Under the pieces are notes generated by a model that saw only the letters and a program-made list of their open reading frames with translations, had not been told where the DNA came from and did not search any database. From assembly GCA_029265355.1 (NCBI GenBank), contig JAJUJL010000022.1, positions 1-64,000 on the forward strand: a stretch of 64,000 nucleotides of DNA, read 5' to 3'. The stretch comes from Chloroflexota bacterium (GTDB taxonomy: Bacteria > Chloroflexota > Anaerolineae > Anaerolineales > UBA4823). The translations under genes were made by a program, and so were the position numbers. Below, piece by piece: positions 17,141 to 43,138 of the stretch (its first letter is position 1; each line of letters starts with the position of its first letter).

Positions 17141-17214
17141 ATTCGTGATTAAACCACACAAAATTATTTCCGAGTAAAATTGTGCTATTCAATTTCGACA
17201 ATTGGAGTGTGCCG

Positions 17215-17910
17215 GTGCCTGCTGCAAAAATCCTGGTGATCGACGATGAGCCGTCTATCCTCAACCTGGTCTCTGCTTACCTGGTCAAGGAGGGCTACCA
17301 GGTGTTGACCGCCGCGGATGGTCCCGGCGGCCTGGCGCTGGCGCGCTCCGAAAAACCCGACCTGGTCGTTCTGGATGTGATGCTGCCCGGCATGGATGGC
17401 ATCGAGCTGCTCACCCGCCTGCGGCGTGAGTCGGACGCCTATGTCATCCTGCTCACGGCGCGCTCCGAGGAGACCGACAAAATCGTGGGTCTCTCTGTCG
17501 GAGCGGATGATTATGTCACCAAGCCTTTTAGCCCGCGTGAGCTGGTGGCGCGCATCAAAGCCGCTCTGCGCCGCCTGCGGGCGCGCGGCGAGAGCGCCGA
17601 GCCGGGCTCGGATGTGCTTGTCTTCAGGCATGTGCGCATCGATATCGCCAGCCGCCGCGCCTGGCTGGCAGACCAGGAGATCGAATTGACTGCCATCGAA
17701 TTCGACCTGCTGCGCGCCCTGGCAGAGAACCGCGGTCGAGTGCTCAGCCGCGAGCAGCTTCTGGAAAAAGTGTGGGGCTACGAGTTCTTTGGCGATACGC
17801 GTGTGGTGGATGTGCACATCGGGCATATTCGCCAAAAACTGGGCGAGAGCGGCCTGATCGCCACGGTGCGTGGCGTCGGATACCGTTTCGAAGATGAGGC
17901 GGCCGTATGA
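17215..17910 (+). CDS. OmpR/PhoB-family response regulator
   Basis: The 231-residue protein has a receiver domain (phospho-acceptor Asp54 in DLVVLDVMLPGMDG, DDE acidic pocket at 10-12, Lys in VTKPFSP) and a winged-helix DNA-binding domain ending RGVGYRFE. The GTG at 17215 has GGAG seven bases upstream; GTG codons at 17209 and 17182 are alternatives. It overlaps the histidine kinase start by four bases and is divergent from the SpoIIE-phosphatase gene, with both promoters squeezed into about 75 bp. Confidence 0.93.
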   Translation: MPAAKILVIDDEPSILNLVSAYLVKEGYQVLTAADGPGGLALARSEKPDLVVLDVMLPGMDGIELLTRLRRESDAYVILLTARSEETDKIVGLSVGADDYVTKPFSPRELVARIKAALRRLRARGESAEPGSDVLVFRHVRIDIASRRAWLADQEIELTAIEFDLLRALAENRGRVLSREQLLEKVWGYEFFGDTRVVDVHIGHIRQKLGESGLIATVRGVGYRFEDEAAV

Positions 17911-19043
17911 TACAGTTCTTCCAGCGCCACCTGGGCGTGAAGCTCTTTATCTCCTACCTGATCGTCATCCTGGTCAGCGGCGTCGTCATGGTCACCGCCG
18001 CCGAGCTGTCCATTCCCGGCGCCTTCAACCGCCACCTTTCGGCCATGCGCCAGGCGATGGCGGGCATGGGCGGGGATGAGCTGCTGGAAGCTGACTTGTA
18101 CGCCAGCTACCAGGCGGCGGTCACCGAGACGCTGCTCCTGGGTGGGCTGGCGGCGGTGGCTGCTGCCGTGCTGGTCAGCCTGTTTGTCTCGCGCGAGGTG
18201 GTGGCGCCGGTGCAGGCGCTGAATCGAGCCAGCCAGCGCATCGCTGAAGGCCATTACACCGAGCGGGTCGATGTGCGCAGCGACCTGCCGCGCAGCCGCC
18301 AGGACGAGCTGGCCGGGCTGGCGCACAGCTTCAACCGCATGGCGGAGACGCTGGAAAAGACCGAGAGTATGCGCCGCCAGTTGATCGGCGACGTGACGCA
18401 CGAGCTGCGCACGCCGCTGACCGCCATCCAGGGCTACATGGAAGGCCTGATGGATGGCGTCTTGCCCGCCGACGAGAGCACTTACCAGATCGTCTCCGCC
18501 GAAGCCGGGCGCTTGAAGCGCCTGGTGGATGACCTGCAGGAGCTCAGCCGCATCGAGGCCGGCGCCTTCGAGTTGCACCGACAGGCGCTGGACATCGCCA
18601 GCCTGCTGCAGCGCGCCTGCCTGCGATTGGAGCGCCAGTACGCCGAAAAGGGTGTGCAGCTCACCGCAGACTTGCCGGAGAACCTGCCTCCCGTGTGGGC
18701 TGACGAAGACCGCCTCAACCAGGTGCTGACCAACCTGCTGGGCAACGCCCTGCAGTACACACCCGCCGGGGGCAGCGTGCACCTCTCCGCCTCTGTTCAC
18801 GGTAGCCAGCTCACGGTCACCGTCAGCGATACGGGCGTTGGCATCGCCGCCGAGCACCTGCCGCACCTGTTCACCCGCTTCTACCGCGTCGACAAGTCCC
18901 GCTCGCGCGCCGGCGGCGGCAGCGGCATCGGCCTGACCATCGCCCGCCACCTGGTGGAAGCGCACGGCGGGCGCATCTGGGCCGAGAGCCAGGGCCTGGG
19001 CAAAGGCAGCGCCTTCAGCTTCAGCCTGCCGCTGGCCCCCTGA
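17907..19043 (+). CDS. Sensor histidine kinase, partner of the adjacent regulator
   Basis: A 378-residue membrane sensor: TM helix at about 12-33, a short periplasmic loop of about 40 residues, a second TM at 74-95, HAMP (about 95-150), dimerisation domain with phospho-acceptor His165 in GDVTHELRTPLTAIQ, and an HATPase domain with NLLGNALQYTPAG, DTGVGI and GGGSGIGLTIA motifs. The small sensor loop gives little clue to the ligand. ATGA overlap with the response regulator indicates a cognate pair. Confidence 0.93.
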   Translation: MIQFFQRHLGVKLFISYLIVILVSGVVMVTAAELSIPGAFNRHLSAMRQAMAGMGGDELLEADLYASYQAAVTETLLLGGLAAVAAAVLVSLFVSREVVAPVQALNRASQRIAEGHYTERVDVRSDLPRSRQDELAGLAHSFNRMAETLEKTESMRRQLIGDVTHELRTPLTAIQGYMEGLMDGVLPADESTYQIVSAEAGRLKRLVDDLQELSRIEAGAFELHRQALDIASLLQRACLRLERQYAEKGVQLTADLPENLPPVWADEDRLNQVLTNLLGNALQYTPAGGSVHLSASVHGSQLTVTVSDTGVGIAAEHLPHLFTRFYRVDKSRSRAGGGSGIGLTIARHLVEAHGGRIWAESQGLGKGSAFSFSLPLAP

Positions 19044-19088
19044 GCTGGTTTGCGCCAGCCTGGAACCGGGTGATGGCGCCTGGATGAG

Positions 19089-19280
19089 GGCGGGTATGTA
19101 CAGGCGGTAAACCGGTCCGTACCAGGGGTACATCACGGAATCGGTGGTATCTTCCACGCCGGCGATGCGCGGCAGATTATCGGCGGTCAGCTCCAGGGAT
19201 GTGCTCACACCGCTGATGCCCTGGGGGTCAACGGCCTGGATGTTCCAGCCCTGCGCATCTTGATAGATATCCCTCAATTC
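19089..19280 (-). pseudogene. Fragment resembling a secreted GW-repeat protein
   Basis: The minus-strand reading contains YQDAQGWNIQAVDPQGISG followed by STSLELTADNLPRIAG. This resembles the repeat unit of large secreted proteins of the type GW-IQTVDS-G-SLALD-PHISY. Only about one unit plus a tail (YPWYGPVYRLYIPAL) remains, with no start, signal peptide or second repeat. It probably is a gene remnant; the longer antisense frame running under the histidine kinase is not real. The stretch 19044-19592 holds little else. Confidence 0.35.
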
Positions 19281-19293
19281 ACTTGCCAGGATT

Positions 19294-19488
19294 GTGCACG
19301 TCTGTTTTTCTACCTGGTATCGAAAGCAACTTCGTTGCCTGGCTGTCATGGTTTGGATCGTTCTGGGAGCCTGCGCGCCGCCGACCGCGCTTTCCCCTGG
19401 GCTCATGCTGCAAAGGTCGCAGGAGGGCGGCGTGGATCTGAGCAGTATGCTGGGATGCGGCGACTATCTTTACAAATTCTTTAGATGA
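19294..19488 (+). CDS. Possible very small lipoprotein
   Basis: A 64-codon frame whose middle looks like a lipoprotein signal peptide: basic KQLR, hydrophobic CLAVMVWIVLG, then the lipobox-like GAC (Cys about residue 27), leaving a mature peptide of under 40 residues ending DYLYKFFR. The start (GTG at 19294 or an internal ATG) lacks a good ribosome-binding site. It overlaps the decayed fragment on the other strand, so it may itself be a remnant. Confidence 0.25.
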   Translation: MHVCFSTWYRKQLRCLAVMVWIVLGACAPPTALSPGLMLQRSQEGGVDLSSMLGCGDYLYKFFR

Positions 19489-19592
19489 CCTTTTTAGAGC
19501 CTTTAACCAACTCTGGTATCCTAACGATACCTGGAGGCGTCTTCAGGGCTCGAACGGTCAGCCTGGTAAGCCAGGATAAAGGAGTGTGCAAG

Positions 19593-19823
19593 ATGATGAC
19601 CGGTTTTGGATGGGGCTTTGGTTACCTGGGAATGATACTGATGGTGGTCTTTTGGGGTCTGTTGATCGCTGGCGGCGTGTGGCTTGCCCGGGCGATCTTC
19701 AACAGCGGAAGCAGCCAACACCTGCCTCCTCCGCCCACGGCCCGCGAGATACTCGACCAGCGCTATGCCCGCGGCGAGCTGACCCGCGAGCAGTATGAGC
19801 TGATGAAGCGAGACCTGGCGTGA
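19593..19823 (+). CDS. SHOCT-domain small membrane protein
   Basis: A 76-residue protein with one transmembrane helix (about 8-30, YLGMILMVVFWGLLIAGGVW) and a C-terminal SHOCT motif: AREILDQRYARGELTREQYELMKRDL. SHOCT is a short oligomerisation motif at protein ends. The ATG at 19593 has AAAGGAG eight bases upstream. Relatives often sit beside heavy-metal or copper redox genes, and here the next gene cluster is a copper/haem redox operon. Confidence 0.8.
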   Translation: MMTGFGWGFGYLGMILMVVFWGLLIAGGVWLARAIFNSGSSQHLPPPPTAREILDQRYARGELTREQYELMKRDLA

Positions 19824-20123: not shown

Positions 20124-20552
20124 ATGCCAAATAAAACATTATTGGTTCTGAGCGTGAGTTTACTGCTGTCAATTTTCCTCTCTGCGTGCAGCCCACAAAC
20201 GGTCGAGCTCGAGATGGCCTCCCTGGATGGCATGCCCGCCAGCGTGCAGGCTGCGCCGGTGGCTGTGCAGCGGGCTTACCAGTTCGCGGCTGCTAACCCG
20301 GATGTGCTCGAGCACCTGCCCTGCTACTGCGGCTGCGGCGCGATGGGGCACACCAGCAATTACATGTGCTATGTATCGGGCGAAGACGCCCAGGGGCAAC
20401 CCATCTACGACGAGCACGCCCTGGGCTGCTCGATCTGCGTGGATATCACCCAGGACGCCATGCGCCTGATGCGCGAAAACAAACCGTTGGACGAGATCAA
20501 ATCCTACATTGACCTGACCTACGCCCAGTACGGGCCGTCCAACATGCCCTGA
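20124..20552 (+). CDS. PCYCGC-motif lipoprotein
   Basis: The 142-residue protein has a lipoprotein signal peptide with lipobox LSAC (Cys22), then the PCYCGC motif (residues 66-71) and further cysteines in NYMCY and GCSICVD. The family is named for this motif; the cysteines are expected to bind metal, plausibly copper, at the outer face of the membrane. TTAGGAG lies 10-15 bases before the ATG. It is the first gene of a plus-strand redox operon with two CuA-type proteins, a ferredoxin membrane protein and a candidate selenoprotein. Confidence 0.85.
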   Translation: MPNKTLLVLSVSLLLSIFLSACSPQTVELEMASLDGMPASVQAAPVAVQRAYQFAAANPDVLEHLPCYCGCGAMGHTSNYMCYVSGEDAQGQPIYDEHALGCSICVDITQDAMRLMRENKPLDEIKSYIDLTYAQYGPSNMP

Positions 20553-20575: not shown

Positions 20576-21028
20576 ATGACGAAAACATCGCTGCACGCTG
20601 TTTTACCCTGGTTGGTCCTGGCGCTGCTGGCTGCGCTGGTGCTGCTCCTGCCGCTGCCCGTCGCCGCGGCGGCGCCTCGGGCGCGCCGCTTTCGCATCGA
20701 GGCCTCCCAGTTTGCCTATTCTCCGGCGGTGCTGCGCGTCAACCCGGGAGACCAGGTGACCATCGAGCTGGCGCCGCAGGACGTGGTGCACGGGCTGTCC
20801 ATCGACAGTTACCCGGTCGATCTGCAAGCCGACCCGGGACAGGTCGCCAGTCTCACCTTCACCGCCGATCGGCCGGGCGTGTTCAAGCTGCGCTGCTCGG
20901 TGACCTGCGGCAACATGCACCCCTTCATGACTGGCAAGTTGCAGGTGGGCCCGCCCACGCTGCTCTGGCGCAGCCTGGGGCTGGCCCTGGTGGCGTTGGC
21001 AGCGGCGCTGCTGCCGAGGTTCAAGTGA
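20576..21028 (+). CDS. Membrane-anchored CuA-type cupredoxin
   Basis: The 150-residue protein has an N-terminal signal/anchor (about 8-32), a cupredoxin domain and a C-terminal hydrophobic helix. The copper ligands match a binuclear CuA site: His72 (VVHGLSI), then C107, C111, H115 and M118 in the pattern CxxxCxxxHxxM. This is the site of cytochrome oxidase subunit II and N2O reductase, but neither catalytic partner is encoded nearby. Probably a small periplasm-facing electron carrier. Its stop overlaps the GTG start of the next gene. Confidence 0.8.
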   Translation: MTKTSLHAVLPWLVLALLAALVLLLPLPVAAAAPRARRFRIEASQFAYSPAVLRVNPGDQVTIELAPQDVVHGLSIDSYPVDLQADPGQVASLTFTADRPGVFKLRCSVTCGNMHPFMTGKLQVGPPTLLWRSLGLALVALAAALLPRFK

Positions 21029-22434
21029 AAGGCGTGGCTGAGTTCGATCTCGCGATGCGGTCAGCCGACGCCCGGCGTGGGTGGCGCGCCAGGCGCTTCG
21101 ACCTGGCCGCGCTGCCCTGGCTGCGCCCTTTCATCGAGAGCCGCTGGCCGCTCTTCGTTACCCGCAGCCTGGCGCTGGCGGGATTGGTCTTCACCATCCT
21201 GGCCGGTTTGCTGGGACCTCGGGTGGGCAGCCACAACTTTGCCATCATCCTCGTTTGGATCGCCTGGTGGACGGCGCTCAAGCTGGTCTTCATCCCGCTG
21301 GGTGGGCGCTCCTGGTGCAGCGTTTGCCCGCTGCCCATGCCGGGCGAATGGCTGCAGCAGGGCAACCTGTTGGGCGGCCTGCAAAAACCGCACGGTCTGG
21401 GCCTGCGCTGGCCAAAAAAGCTGCGCGGCGCCTGGCTGCAATCGGGGGCGTTCTTGCTGATCGGCCTGTTCTCCGCCGTCACGCTCACCGATGGGCGGGT
21501 GACCGCCTGGGTGCTGCTGGCGCTGATCCTGGCTTCGGTCGGTCTCAGCCTGGTTTTCGAGCGGCGCGCCTTTTGCCGCTATGTCTGCCCCATCGGCGGC
21601 TTCACCGGCCCGTATGCCCGCTTTGCGCCAGTGGAAGTGCGCGTCAAATCGTCCTCCGTGTGCGCCGCCCACAGCGAAAAGACCTGCTACCAGGCCTGCC
21701 CGTGGGGGCAGTACCCGTTGGCGATGCGCGACAGCGCCCAGTGTGGCCTGTGTATGGAATGCCTGCGCGCCTGCCCCAGCGATAACATTGCGCTCTCACT
21801 GCGGCCCTTCGGCAGCGACCTGGGAGCTGCTCACCAGCCCCGGGGCCTGGATGAGGCGTTCCTGGCGCTGGTCATGTTGGGCAGCGCCCTGGCCTTCTCG
21901 GCGGTGTTCACCGGCCCGTGGGGCTGGTTGAAAAGCGCCGCCTACCAGGTGGGCAGCCTGCCCTGGCTGGGTTACAGCGCTGGTTTCCTGGCGCTCAACC
22001 TGCTGCTGCTGCCCGGCCTGTTCGCCGCGGCCGCCTGGCTGCACCGTCGCCTGTCTGGCTCTCCAGCGCAGCTCGGCAAAATCTTCGCCCAGCAGGCGCA
22101 GGCGCTCTATCCGCTGGGCCTGTTCACCTGGATGGCGTTCACGGTTTCGTTTGCTTTCCCGAAATTCTACCTGGTGGCGGAGATGCTCGCCGACCCGCTC
22201 GGCCTGGGCTGGGAGCTTCCCGGGCTGGCGGCGCTCGATTTCGGCTGGCTGCAGCAGGTTGGCCCCGGGCTGCAAGCCGCCATACTGCTGGCAGGCCTGG
22301 CGATTTCCCTGCGCCTGGCGCGGCAGTTGGCGCAGGCCTCGGTAACCAACCGCAGCCCAGTATTGGCTGCCCTGCCGGTTTCGCTGTTCTGCGTGGTCTA
22401 TACAGGATGGGTGTTATGGATGCTGGTCGGATAG
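21025..22434 (+). CDS. NapH/NosR-like polyferredoxin membrane protein
   Basis: A 469-residue multi-spanning membrane protein. It has Cys pairs after transmembrane helices (WCSVCPLPMPGEW; FCRYVCPIGGFTGPY) as in NapH/NosR/CcoG proteins, and a ferredoxin-like block CYQACPWGQ...CGLCMECLRACP for [4Fe-4S] clusters. Such proteins pass electrons from the quinone pool or cytoplasm to periplasmic redox proteins. Here the likely acceptors are the two CuA proteins on either side. It starts with GTG at 21025, overlapping the cupredoxin stop. Confidence 0.8.
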   Translation: MKGVAEFDLAMRSADARRGWRARRFDLAALPWLRPFIESRWPLFVTRSLALAGLVFTILAGLLGPRVGSHNFAIILVWIAWWTALKLVFIPLGGRSWCSVCPLPMPGEWLQQGNLLGGLQKPHGLGLRWPKKLRGAWLQSGAFLLIGLFSAVTLTDGRVTAWVLLALILASVGLSLVFERRAFCRYVCPIGGFTGPYARFAPVEVRVKSSSVCAAHSEKTCYQACPWGQYPLAMRDSAQCGLCMECLRACPSDNIALSLRPFGSDLGAAHQPRGLDEAFLALVMLGSALAFSAVFTGPWGWLKSAAYQVGSLPWLGYSAGFLALNLLLLPGLFAAAAWLHRRLSGSPAQLGKIFAQQAQALYPLGLFTWMAFTVSFAFPKFYLVAEMLADPLGLGWELPGLAALDFGWLQQVGPGLQAAILLAGLAISLRLARQLAQASVTNRSPVLAALPVSLFCVVYTGWVLWMLVG

Positions 22435-23459
22435 CGCCTCAGCGCGAACGGCGGGCGCGCCTGTTTTTACTGGCCTTGTTGGCTGCGTTGGCGCTGGTGT
22501 TGCTGGCGGCGTACCTGGCTCGCCCTGAGGGTGTGCTGGTGCGGGCTGCCATGCCAGAGCAGGGCGGCTGGCTGCCAGCGGAACTGAAAGCGCGCGTGGG
22601 CGAGCCGCTGCGCCTGCGCCTGATCTCGGAAGATGTCACCCACGGCTTCGCCGTGGGCAGGCATGACGCGCCGGCGGTGGATGTTAACCCGGGGGAGTAC
22701 CGTGAAATCACCTTGCTCTTCGACCAGCCGGGGAAGTACGTCTACTACTGCACGCGCTGGTGCGGGCTCAACCACTGGCGCATGCGCGGCACGATCGAGG
22801 TGGTCAGCGCAGGGCAGCCGGGCAGCGACGGGCAGGCGGCGCCGGCCGAGCCGCCGCTGTACCTGCAGCTTGGCATTGACATCGACGCTCCCCATCCCGC
22901 CGCAGTCGTCCCGGAGGGGCGCCCGCGGGCTGAGCTCACCGCCGGGCGCATCTCCGGATTGCCGGAGCATTACCGCAGCCGGGAGTATTACCTTTCGCAC
23001 AGCCCGTCCCAGGCCTGGCAAGCGCTGCGCCAGGAGCCAGCCGCGCAGGCGTTGAGCGACGAACAGCTCTGGTCGCTGGTGGCGGGTTTGTGGCAGGCGC
23101 AGACCCGCGTCGAGCGCCTGGAGTTTGCCCGTCAGCAATACAACCAGAACTGCGCCGCCTGCCACGGCGCGCAGGGCGCCGGCGATGGGGTGGCTGCCCG
23201 ACAGATGGCGGACGGCGCCGGGTCCGGCCCCGTGATGGGCATGCAAGGCCATGGATTGCAAAAGCCGAGCAGCTTTGCCGATCCCGGCGCAATGCTGGGC
23301 GCCAGCCCGGCGCTGCTCGCTGGAAAAATCGTGCGCGGCGGTATGGGCACCGGCATGCCCTATTGGGGGCCAATCTTCGATGATGACCAGGTCATGGCGC
23401 TGGTCGAGTACCTGTACACATTTCAATTTGATTATTCATTGGAGGTGAAAGATGAGTAA
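22416..23459 (+). CDS. CuA-type cupredoxin - cytochrome c fusion
   Basis: The 347-residue protein has one N-terminal TM helix (about 15-35), a cupredoxin domain with CuA ligands H76, C112, C116, H120 and M123, a linker, and a class I cytochrome c domain with CAACH at 246-250 and a likely axial Met in GGMGTGMPYW. The order copies cytochrome oxidase subunit II of the caa3 type, but no subunit I gene follows. ATG at 22416 lies inside the end of the previous gene; ATG at 22407 is an alternative. It overlaps the next gene by eight bases. Confidence 0.8.
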   Translation: MDAGRIAPQRERRARLFLLALLAALALVLLAAYLARPEGVLVRAAMPEQGGWLPAELKARVGEPLRLRLISEDVTHGFAVGRHDAPAVDVNPGEYREITLLFDQPGKYVYYCTRWCGLNHWRMRGTIEVVSAGQPGSDGQAAPAEPPLYLQLGIDIDAPHPAAVVPEGRPRAELTAGRISGLPEHYRSREYYLSHSPSQAWQALRQEPAAQALSDEQLWSLVAGLWQAQTRVERLEFARQQYNQNCAACHGAQGAGDGVAARQMADGAGSGPVMGMQGHGLQKPSSFADPGAMLGASPALLAGKIVRGGMGTGMPYWGPIFDDDQVMALVEYLYTFQFDYSLEVKDE

Positions 23460-23949
23460 GAATGCCAGGCGAAAGGCAAATTCTGCGCAAAAGAAACTGC
23501 CGCTGCCCCTGCTGCTGGTGGTGGGCGGTGTGCTGCTGATCGCTGGGGCGCTGTACGCTGTGTGGCAGGCCCGGCAGCCGTCCCTGGAGACTGCGCCGGC
23601 CGAAACCAGCGGTTCGCCCCGCCTGAAGGTGGACCCGCAAGTGGTCGACCTGGGCGATGTGCCGGTAGATCAGGTGGTGGATGTGACCTTCAAGATCGCC
23701 AACACAGGCGATGGAACGCTGCGCATCAGCGAGCAACCGGTGGTGCGCGTCGTGGAGGGGTGCTGACCGCCCACGGCGACCATCGGTTCGATGGTCCTCA
23801 AACCGGGCGAGCAGACCACGCTGTCGATGAGCTTCACCATGCACGCCGGCATGGAGGGTCCACATGACTTCCGCGTCAACCTGGAGAACAATGACCCCAC
23901 CCAGCCGTCCAAGGAGTTGGTAATCCTGTCGAACTGGGTGCCGAAGTAG
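23452..23949 (+). CDS. Candidate selenoprotein: membrane-anchored DUF1573-like protein with Cys-Sec motif
   Basis: Translation from the ATG at 23452 (GGAGGTG five bases upstream) reaches TGA at 23764-23766 right after VRVVEGC. The same frame continues with PPTATIGSMVLKPGEQTT and stays open to TAG at 23947-23949, giving 165 residues with residue 105 at the UGA. The protein has a TM anchor (about 18-40) and an immunoglobulin-like DUF1573/ASH-type fold with VVDLGDVPVDQVVDVTFKI and, after the UGA, FRVNLENNDP and a terminal SNW. Strong conservation-like sense after the UGA, plus a bSECIS-like stem, argue for selenocysteine in a C-U-P-P redox motif rather than a break. Stop codon overlap ties it to the CuA-cytochrome gene. 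Confidence 0.75.
23764..23796 (+). promoter_or_regulatory. Putative bacterial SECIS stem-loop after in-frame UGA
   Basis: GACCATC (23778-23784) pairs perfectly with GATGGTC (23790-23796) around a five-base loop GGTTC. The loop starts 18 nt after the UGA and begins with G, as expected for a SelB-binding bacterial SECIS. The stem is within the coding frame. Confidence 0.65.
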
Positions 23950-42717: not shown

Positions 42718-42754
42718 AAAAAAAAAGACACATCCCAAACCGGGATGTGTCTTT
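42718..42754 (-). terminator. Terminator of the cold-shock gene
   Basis: On the minus strand GACACATCCC pairs with GGGATGTGTC (42727-42751) and is followed by eight or nine T. It lies 20 bp after the csp stop. Confidence 0.85.
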
Positions 42755-42773
42755 GGCTTGTAAAGTGGGTGAA

Positions 42774-42986
42774 CTAGCCGGCTAAGACAACGTTGCTGGC
42801 CTGCAAACCCTTGGGGCCGCGCTCGATGGTGAATTCCACCTTCTGGCCCTCTTCGAGGTTGCGGAAGCCATCGCCCTGGATGGCGGAGTAGTGCACAAAG
42901 ACGTCGGGGCCATCTTCACGTGAAATGAACCCATAACCTTTGCTGCCGTTGAACCACTTGACGGTTCCGATGGTACGATCGGACAT
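42774..42986 (-). CDS. Cold-shock protein, CspA family
   Basis: A 70-residue single-domain nucleic-acid chaperone with RNP1 KGYGFISRE and RNP2 DVFVHYSAI motifs, the classic CspA sheet. The ATG at 42986 has GAAGGAG upstream; the longer reading starting at 43064 is not needed. A 145-nt leader from the promoter at 43139-43167 contains a CAGCTCACGG/CCGTGAGCTG hairpin (43068-43092), in keeping with the structured leaders of cold-shock genes. Confidence 0.95.
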
Positions 42987-43138
42987 GATGTTTTTTGCTC
43001 CTTCTAGCAAGAAAAAAAAGTATTCTGTGACACCAAGGACGTTCCATCGGAGACTGCTGAACAAAACAGCTCACGGACTGACCGTGAGCTGCTGTTGACT
43101 TGTGTTCCAACGCGAACTACTGGTATCCTACGCTCAGT

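Follow-up and report, generated by a model that had tools for sequence, protein, structure and literature searches.

Taken together, our comparisons argue that selenocysteine (Sec) is inserted at the UGA at position 23764 of the window, by which we mean the whole stretch of DNA analyzed here (the first 64,000 bases of one contig in a 5.05-Mb draft genome of 64 contigs), and that the gene around this codon makes a selenoprotein; we put the probability of this reading at roughly 0.93. Comparison with relatives brings out the Sec codon, the hairpin, the Sec machinery, and the gene neighborhood, and it is the same-site TGA or Cys codons, the covarying hairpin, and the sel genes that bear out the selenoprotein first proposed in a sequence-only reading of this DNA. 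At the ribosome, SelB bound to the hairpin would deliver Sec-tRNA to the UGA, Sec105 would be inserted, and translation would continue to the TAG at 23947; insertion in the living cell is what we infer from these comparisons.

A recurrent in-frame TGA

The candidate gene (23452..23949, + strand) encodes 165 residues with an N-terminal anchor and a DUF1573/Ig-like domain. Its frame starts at ATG 23452 and reads through a single TGA (23764-23766), directly 3' of VEGC, with 60 codons between this TGA and the TAG at 23947. The TGC codon of Cys104 and the TGA codon of Sec105 (23761..23766, + strand) form a CU pair that is backed by aligned-codon counts in relatives. The start codon falls inside the end of the upstream frame, which ends at 23459, and a Shine-Dalgarno-like GGAGGTG, read from the sequence, lies ahead of it (23441..23447, + strand). 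The sequence-only reading had described the frame with its TGA after VEGC, the 60 further codons, and the final TAG, as well as a stem GACCATC, loop GGTTC, and GATGGTC with the loop 18 nt from the UGA, and all of these are exactly as it gave them. Standard gene callers are expected to shorten GCUPP-type genes such as this one at the TGA.

To collect relatives, we searched 396 class genomes, which gave matches in 109, and added 40 further regions. After removal of 17 duplicates or unrelated frames from 98 anchor rows, 81 distinct copies remained (locus L025 yielded no anchor; the anchor demands C-x-P, and copies having lost both residues would escape it). The aligned codon is TGA in 66 of them, TGC in 11, and TGT in 4, and TAA or TAG in none, so that either Cys or TGA stands at the site, the pattern by which the sequence-only reading had proposed to judge the homologs. 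A later batch of 17 TGA regions gave 14 with TGA at the same site, the other 3 being without an anchor; stop codons at the Sec105 site were thus TGA in 66 of 66 and then in 14 of 14 copies. The hairpin pair counts, dN/dS values, and tree given below do not include the 14 late copies. Counted by hand among the matches listed, at least 64 of the 396 class genomes have one or more copies with an in-frame TGA, and the TGA site was confirmed in each of these 64, again among the matches listed, once the later batch was included. Further TGA copies are L118 in the class and L122, L126, L127, and L129 outside it. In 17 named loci that carry a gene for a related protein, the source is always Chloroflexota or a group within it, mostly Anaerolineae, which makes a host of this class probable for the window.

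This recurrence also bears on the origin of the codon. In a draft genome of 64 contigs, a sequencing or assembly error might have turned a Cys codon into TGA, but the same codon occurs in 66 distinct sequences, including those of the single-contig genomes G027, G213, G251, and G351, and we regard the chance of such an error as negligible; the sequence-only reading had named it as a possible refutation, and recurrence excludes it. Furthermore, the median dN/dS is 0.10 after the TGA (137 of 140 pairs usable) and 0.13 before it (109 of 140 pairs usable), and, judged from these ratios, the codons 3' of the TGA are under purifying selection and as constrained as the 5' codons. Although TGA ends some genes of the family (for example, L009, L016, and L019) and is therefore a working stop there, the low dN/dS beyond the site, the occurrence of TGA at this position in 66 copies with no TAA or TAG, the covariation of the hairpin, and a confident domain model that runs on through the site (see below) make it very improbable that the TGA is an ordinary stop, ending a 104-residue protein, with the remainder being a decaying or overprinted remnant.

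A tree of the 81 copies and three outgroup pieces requires seven Sec/Cys changes, two of them forced by starred branches, and is built on few columns with many open forks. A Sec copy and a Cys copy of the family adjoin at locus L047 (genome G129). The copy at L062 (genome G227, family f47) is nearly identical in the tree to those of f2, the order of the window, owing either to recent transfer or to a mis-binned contig. Three family matches, L133 (G155:C229), L141 (G153:C53), and L147 (G213:C1), have no C-x-P anchor in one frame; L133 has two TGA codons, L147 consists of two neighboring part-matches, and it is possible that all three are decaying copies.

Hairpin and selenocysteine machinery

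A hallmark of bacterial selenoprotein genes is a hairpin immediately downstream of the UGA whose loop has a G near its start. The candidate bSECIS hairpin (23778..23796, + strand) pairs a stem of 23778-23784 with 23790-23796 around the loop GGTTC (23785-23789), and it lies just 3' of the UGA, with gaps of 11 nt to the stem and 18 nt to the loop, and has a G early in the loop. As proof of Sec, the hairpin of the window alone was rejected: its z score is −1.46, a fold of at least equal stability arises in 18 of 200 dinucleotide shuffles, and its stem length gives a p value of 0.069 against synonymous resampling. Since it is weak by itself, we compared the relatives.

In 69 TGA sequences (64 of the 66 TGA copies, plus L118, L122, L126, L127, and L129; L094 and L098 keep the hairpin but were omitted from the pair counts, as a one-codon insert shifts it), the inner six pairs form in 99.3% of cells, and a compensatory change is seen in five of the six. 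Both sides of a pair have changed in 74 cells versus 25.5 in shuffles, a number that none of 500 shuffles attained; likewise, the observed pairing or covariation score was reached by none of 500 shuffles. Sliding the pairing partner abolishes the covariation signal, RNAalifold predicts the same six pairs from the alignment, and the inner pair of the out-of-class copies goes from C-G to A-U and G-C. Conservation among relatives does not extend to the outermost pair of the window's stem, and covariation partly tracks the protein sequence (TIGSMV versus VVGSTT). In the Sec copies found elsewhere in the phylum (L122, L126, L127, and L129), the differing stem sequences still pair.

Stem lengths separate the two kinds of copies on average. 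The mean stem of the 66 Sec copies is 7.08 pairs versus 5.19 expected (synonymous resampling with outside codon usage), with only 13 of the 66 reaching a p value of 0.05 singly, and that of the 15 Cys copies is 4.2 versus 4.16 expected. One Cys copy, L023, has a seven-pair stem, either by chance or through its history. Compared with synonymous resampling, the free energy of folding of 45-nt pieces is a weak signal in Sec copies (mean z of −0.81, with 15 of 66 at a rank of ≤0.05), partly because the codon usage was drawn from pieces that contain the hairpin; for Cys copies, the mean z is −0.48, with 1 of 15 at a rank of ≤0.05. The loop starts with [GA]GT in 63 of 64 aligned copies and with GGG in one, and the loops of these 64 copies are GGTTC, AGTTC, GGTCA, GGTAC, or a near relative. 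The conserved G-U of the loop is reminiscent of the SelB contact of the Escherichia coli fdhF element. Rfam at the gathering score detected no SECIS family in the 64-kb window and gave cspA as the only hit, a cspA thermoregulator RNA (92.8 bits) at 42722-43090 on the minus strand.

The sequence-only reading had pointed to the sel genes as a check, and all of them are in the genome of the window: selA (543 bits), selB (344 bits), selD (358 bits), which has an in-frame TGA of its own, and a tRNA-Sec with the anticodon TCA (75.4 bits). Because selA is common in the class (over the cut-off in 315 of 396 genomes), its mere presence says little, and the distribution of the machinery over Sec and Cys copies is more telling. 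Among the matches listed, 65 genomes hold a Sec copy, and 64 of these have selA (E < 1e-40) or selB over the cut-off. By hand count, 57 of the 64 class genomes with a TGA copy have selA at E < 1e-40 (within these 57, selB was searched only in the window's own genome and in G354), and six of the remaining seven have selB over the cut-off; the 65th Sec-copy genome, G744 (locus L016), has both. G354, which is 67% complete, has a selA match at an E value of 1.7e-41 and selB in pieces only, and scoring it as lacking the machinery gives 63 of 65. G128, a Sec-copy draft of 1110 contigs, has no selA, selB, or tRNA-Sec over the cut-off. Of 14 genomes with Cys copies only, seven have selA and selB over the cut-off and seven have neither. 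The difference between Sec and Cys-only genomes gives a Fisher p value of 9e-6, or 4e-5 with G354 as lacking, both of which overstate independence because copies and genomes are related. In G222, which has a Cys copy, there is a tRNA-Sec of 76 bits, and neither selA nor selB is over the cut-off, indicating either a relict or an unusual Sec system.

These data also address a reading of the UGA as Trp or Cys, by a code change or by suppression, instead of Sec. Cys is indeed the sole alternative residue at the site, as such a reading might have it, but several genes of the family terminate in TGA, the genome contains the Sec machinery, and a covarying hairpin accompanies the TGA copies, so that we give this reading even less weight than that of an ordinary stop.

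Fold, conserved residues, and copper genes

The protein had been called DUF1573-like from its sequence, which is supported by a Pfam score of 30.8 bits to PF07610 (DUF1573; cut-off, 26.1), and 60 of 62 aligned members match PF07610 at E values up to 0.01. PF22544 (HYDIN/VesB Ig-like) is also over its cut-off (39 bits). The structure model, which like the conservation analysis is based on an alignment of 62 of the 81 copies, has a mean pLDDT of 89.5, with 95 to 98 in blocks of residues 61-165, and shows a beta sandwich preceded by a single N-terminal helix (19-40); the prediction of this helix agrees with the membrane anchor that had been claimed. The basic N terminus suggests that the DUF1573 domain lies on the outer side of the membrane. 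In a fold search, the closest solved chain was 2qsv (Z of 13.8, rmsd of 2.0 over 104 residues, 21% identity), and a sequence search of solved structures gave mostly HYDIN-type domain repeats plus 2qsv. The best fold matches of the model are Ig/PapD-like chains, and no thioredoxin fold was among the best 50 matches of either of the two fold searches, which does not in itself speak against one.

Invariant in the 62 aligned copies are M1, N84, G86, L90, G103, C104, Cys/Sec105, and P106 and, further on, G119, M130, M134, and H138, and H131 is conserved in at least 90%. Met130-His131-x2-Met134-x3-His138 forms a motif (MHxGMxGxH; 23839..23865, + strand) that is defined by this conservation. H131 is replaced in the later copies L136, L139, and L145, and L122 reads SCUPQ and is without the MHxGM motif. 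In the model, strand 97-102 is followed by the loop that holds C104-Sec105, and strand 121-128 by the one that holds the Met/His cluster. With strands named A to G, the two would be the CD and EF loops and would probably lie at the same end of the Ig sandwich.

The gene had further been proposed to belong to an electron transfer operon, and CuA and NapH-like genes do lie upstream. Directly ahead, and overlapping its start, is a gene for a CuA domain (COX2-like) fused to cytochrome c (22428..23459, start approximate, + strand; PF00116 and PF00034), relatives of which occur at 49 of 80 family loci, the locus in the window among them. It is preceded by a NapH/MauN-like membrane ferredoxin protein (21025..22434, + strand; PF12801, with TIGR02163 below its cut-off; relatives at 39 of 80 loci), a CuA-type cupredoxin (CSVTCGNMHPFM; 20576..21028, + strand; PF00116 and PF13473), and the Cys form of a PCYCGC/OS_HP4-like protein (20124..20552, + strand; PF13798, 91.4 bits; NF041379, 72.2 bits with a cut-off of 90; relatives at 42 of 80 loci). 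Relatives of the cupredoxin are found at 45 of 80 loci, a count that overlaps with that of the CuA-cytochrome and includes partly the same genes because both CuA domains match each other. A response regulator, a histidine kinase, and a small SHOCT-domain protein (17182..19823, + strand; Pfam) are possible associated genes, with relatives at 20, 17, and 9 of 80 loci, respectively. Overall, 66 of 80 family loci, with that of the window included, have at least one CuA, PCYCGC, or NapH-like relative, compared with none of 19 control loci taken from the same genome as the window; at 14 of 80 loci, none of the four operon genes is found within the short flanks. A P-type ATPase cluster occurs at 18 of 80 loci, and its representative, a 400-residue piece, scored best against CopA/copper ATPase models, below the full-length cut-offs.

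Two side observations concern these neighbors. In the window, two CuA-type proteins and the NapH-like ferredoxin follow each other in a row (20576-23459); we noticed no oxidase subunit I in this run, and these genes may form an electron chain. At L054, L055, and L085, the GCUPP gene has a PCYCGC neighbor with an in-frame TGA at the distal CxxC (HAFG-TGA-xICVDIT), followed by a possible hairpin, which makes these loci candidates for two neighboring selenoproteins each.

How might such a protein work? We envisage that the one N-terminal helix anchors the product in the membrane, with the Ig-like DUF1573 domain on the outer face, and that the domain presents the vicinal Cys104-Sec105 pair in one loop and the Met/His cluster in another, both probably at one end. 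The pair, jointly with the PCYCGC protein, would act on the copper-thiol centers of the CuA proteins encoded beside the gene, by reduction of their cysteines or by handover of Cu(I). The Cys-Sec pair may be a working redox site, as had been supposed from the sequence, and a metal site is as plausible. Motif and context lead us to favor, tentatively, such a thiol/selenol service to the adjoining copper centers, be it CuA cysteine reduction or Cu(I) transfer. It is also possible that the pair, without a link to copper, works more generally in the cell envelope as a thiol-selenol reductase or a scavenger of peroxides, a role that we rank only slightly behind copper service on the same grounds of motif and context. 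Redox roles are thought likely for many uncharacterized selenoproteins in the part of a recent inventory available to us (PMC13188914), and the neighboring PCYCGC protein has a CxxC/UxxC site. However, the model matches Ig/PapD-like chains, the gene adjoins those of CuA proteins, a copper-type ATPase is present at 18 of 80 loci, and the conserved Met and His residues beside the pair would fit metal binding better. Coming back to copper service, a more specific version of it, in which C104-Sec105 and Met130/His131/Met134/His138 bind Cu(I) and, with the PCYCGC protein (which sometimes contains Sec itself), build or repair CuA, appears doubtful to us. If true, it would describe a copper metallochaperone that depends on Sec, is built on an Ig-like fold, and is widespread in one bacterial class.

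Relation to known selenoproteins and copper proteins

OS_HP2 (PF07610, NF041425), reportedly described by Zhang and Gladyshev in 2007 as cited in reviews, is one of the closest known systems. It belongs to the same domain family, with Sec or Cys at a conserved thiol motif, and 55 of 62 aligned members of our family match NF041425 at E values up to 0.01. In contrast to OS_HP2, where Sec occupies UGC or UxC, Sec here stands in CU within GCUPP. Furthermore, the window protein scores 22.2 bits against an NF041425 cut-off of 100, and thus this model would not flag it; the best member has an E value of 1.5e-10 (roughly 40 bits by estimate), and NF041425 was over the cut-off in none of 400 genomes of the phylum. 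In an hhalign alignment, C104 aligns with the first Cys of the canonical CxC motif and Sec105 with the next residue. Ten canonical DUF1573 relatives read CGCT (eight), CSCT (one), or CACT (one), whereas the motif here is GC[U/C]P and lacks the CxCT pattern.

In the portions of the reviews available to us, DUF1573 selenoproteins are listed with the motif UGC (PMC9312934 and PMC13188914) and OS_HP2 is listed with UxC (PMC2398784). The 2026 inventory counts 119 selenoprotein families or subfamilies and assigns proteins that differ in Sec position to separate subfamilies, and the part of its table available to us has no CU form of DUF1573 and lists OS_HP4/CYCXC (PF13798) with the motif UxxC (PMC13188914); DUF1573 is not mentioned in the available part of PMC12013277. 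In the literature searched (mostly titles and abstracts, with subscription papers and preprints outside the scope), a CU-form DUF1573 selenoprotein was not found. Judged by its sequence, the CU form would be a variant of DUF1573 selenoproteins already in print, with the CU position itself new to the literature searched. It would add a selenoprotein subfamily with members in at least 64 of the 396 genomes sampled from one class, link selenium to copper electron transfer genes, with a second Sec candidate next door at three loci, and open the roles of DUF1573 and PCYCGC proteins to testing.

OS_HP4 is related to the system by neighborhood: its Cys form is encoded in the window's operon and UxxC forms stand beside the GCUPP copies of L054, L055, and L085, but it is an unrelated protein and a likely partner, not a homolog. 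With Porphyromonas gingivalis 2qsv, of unknown function, and with HYDIN/ASH/PapD-like Ig domains, the fold alone is shared. Sco1 and PCuAC are maturation factors of CuA. CtaK/YtkA are described, in the part of the source available to us, as envelope proteins that serve CuA sites (PMC13068155). By analogy, Sco1, PCuAC, and CtaK/YtkA, all envelope proteins with thiol or Met/His residues, may be the functional counterparts of the candidate, which is likewise encoded beside CuA genes.
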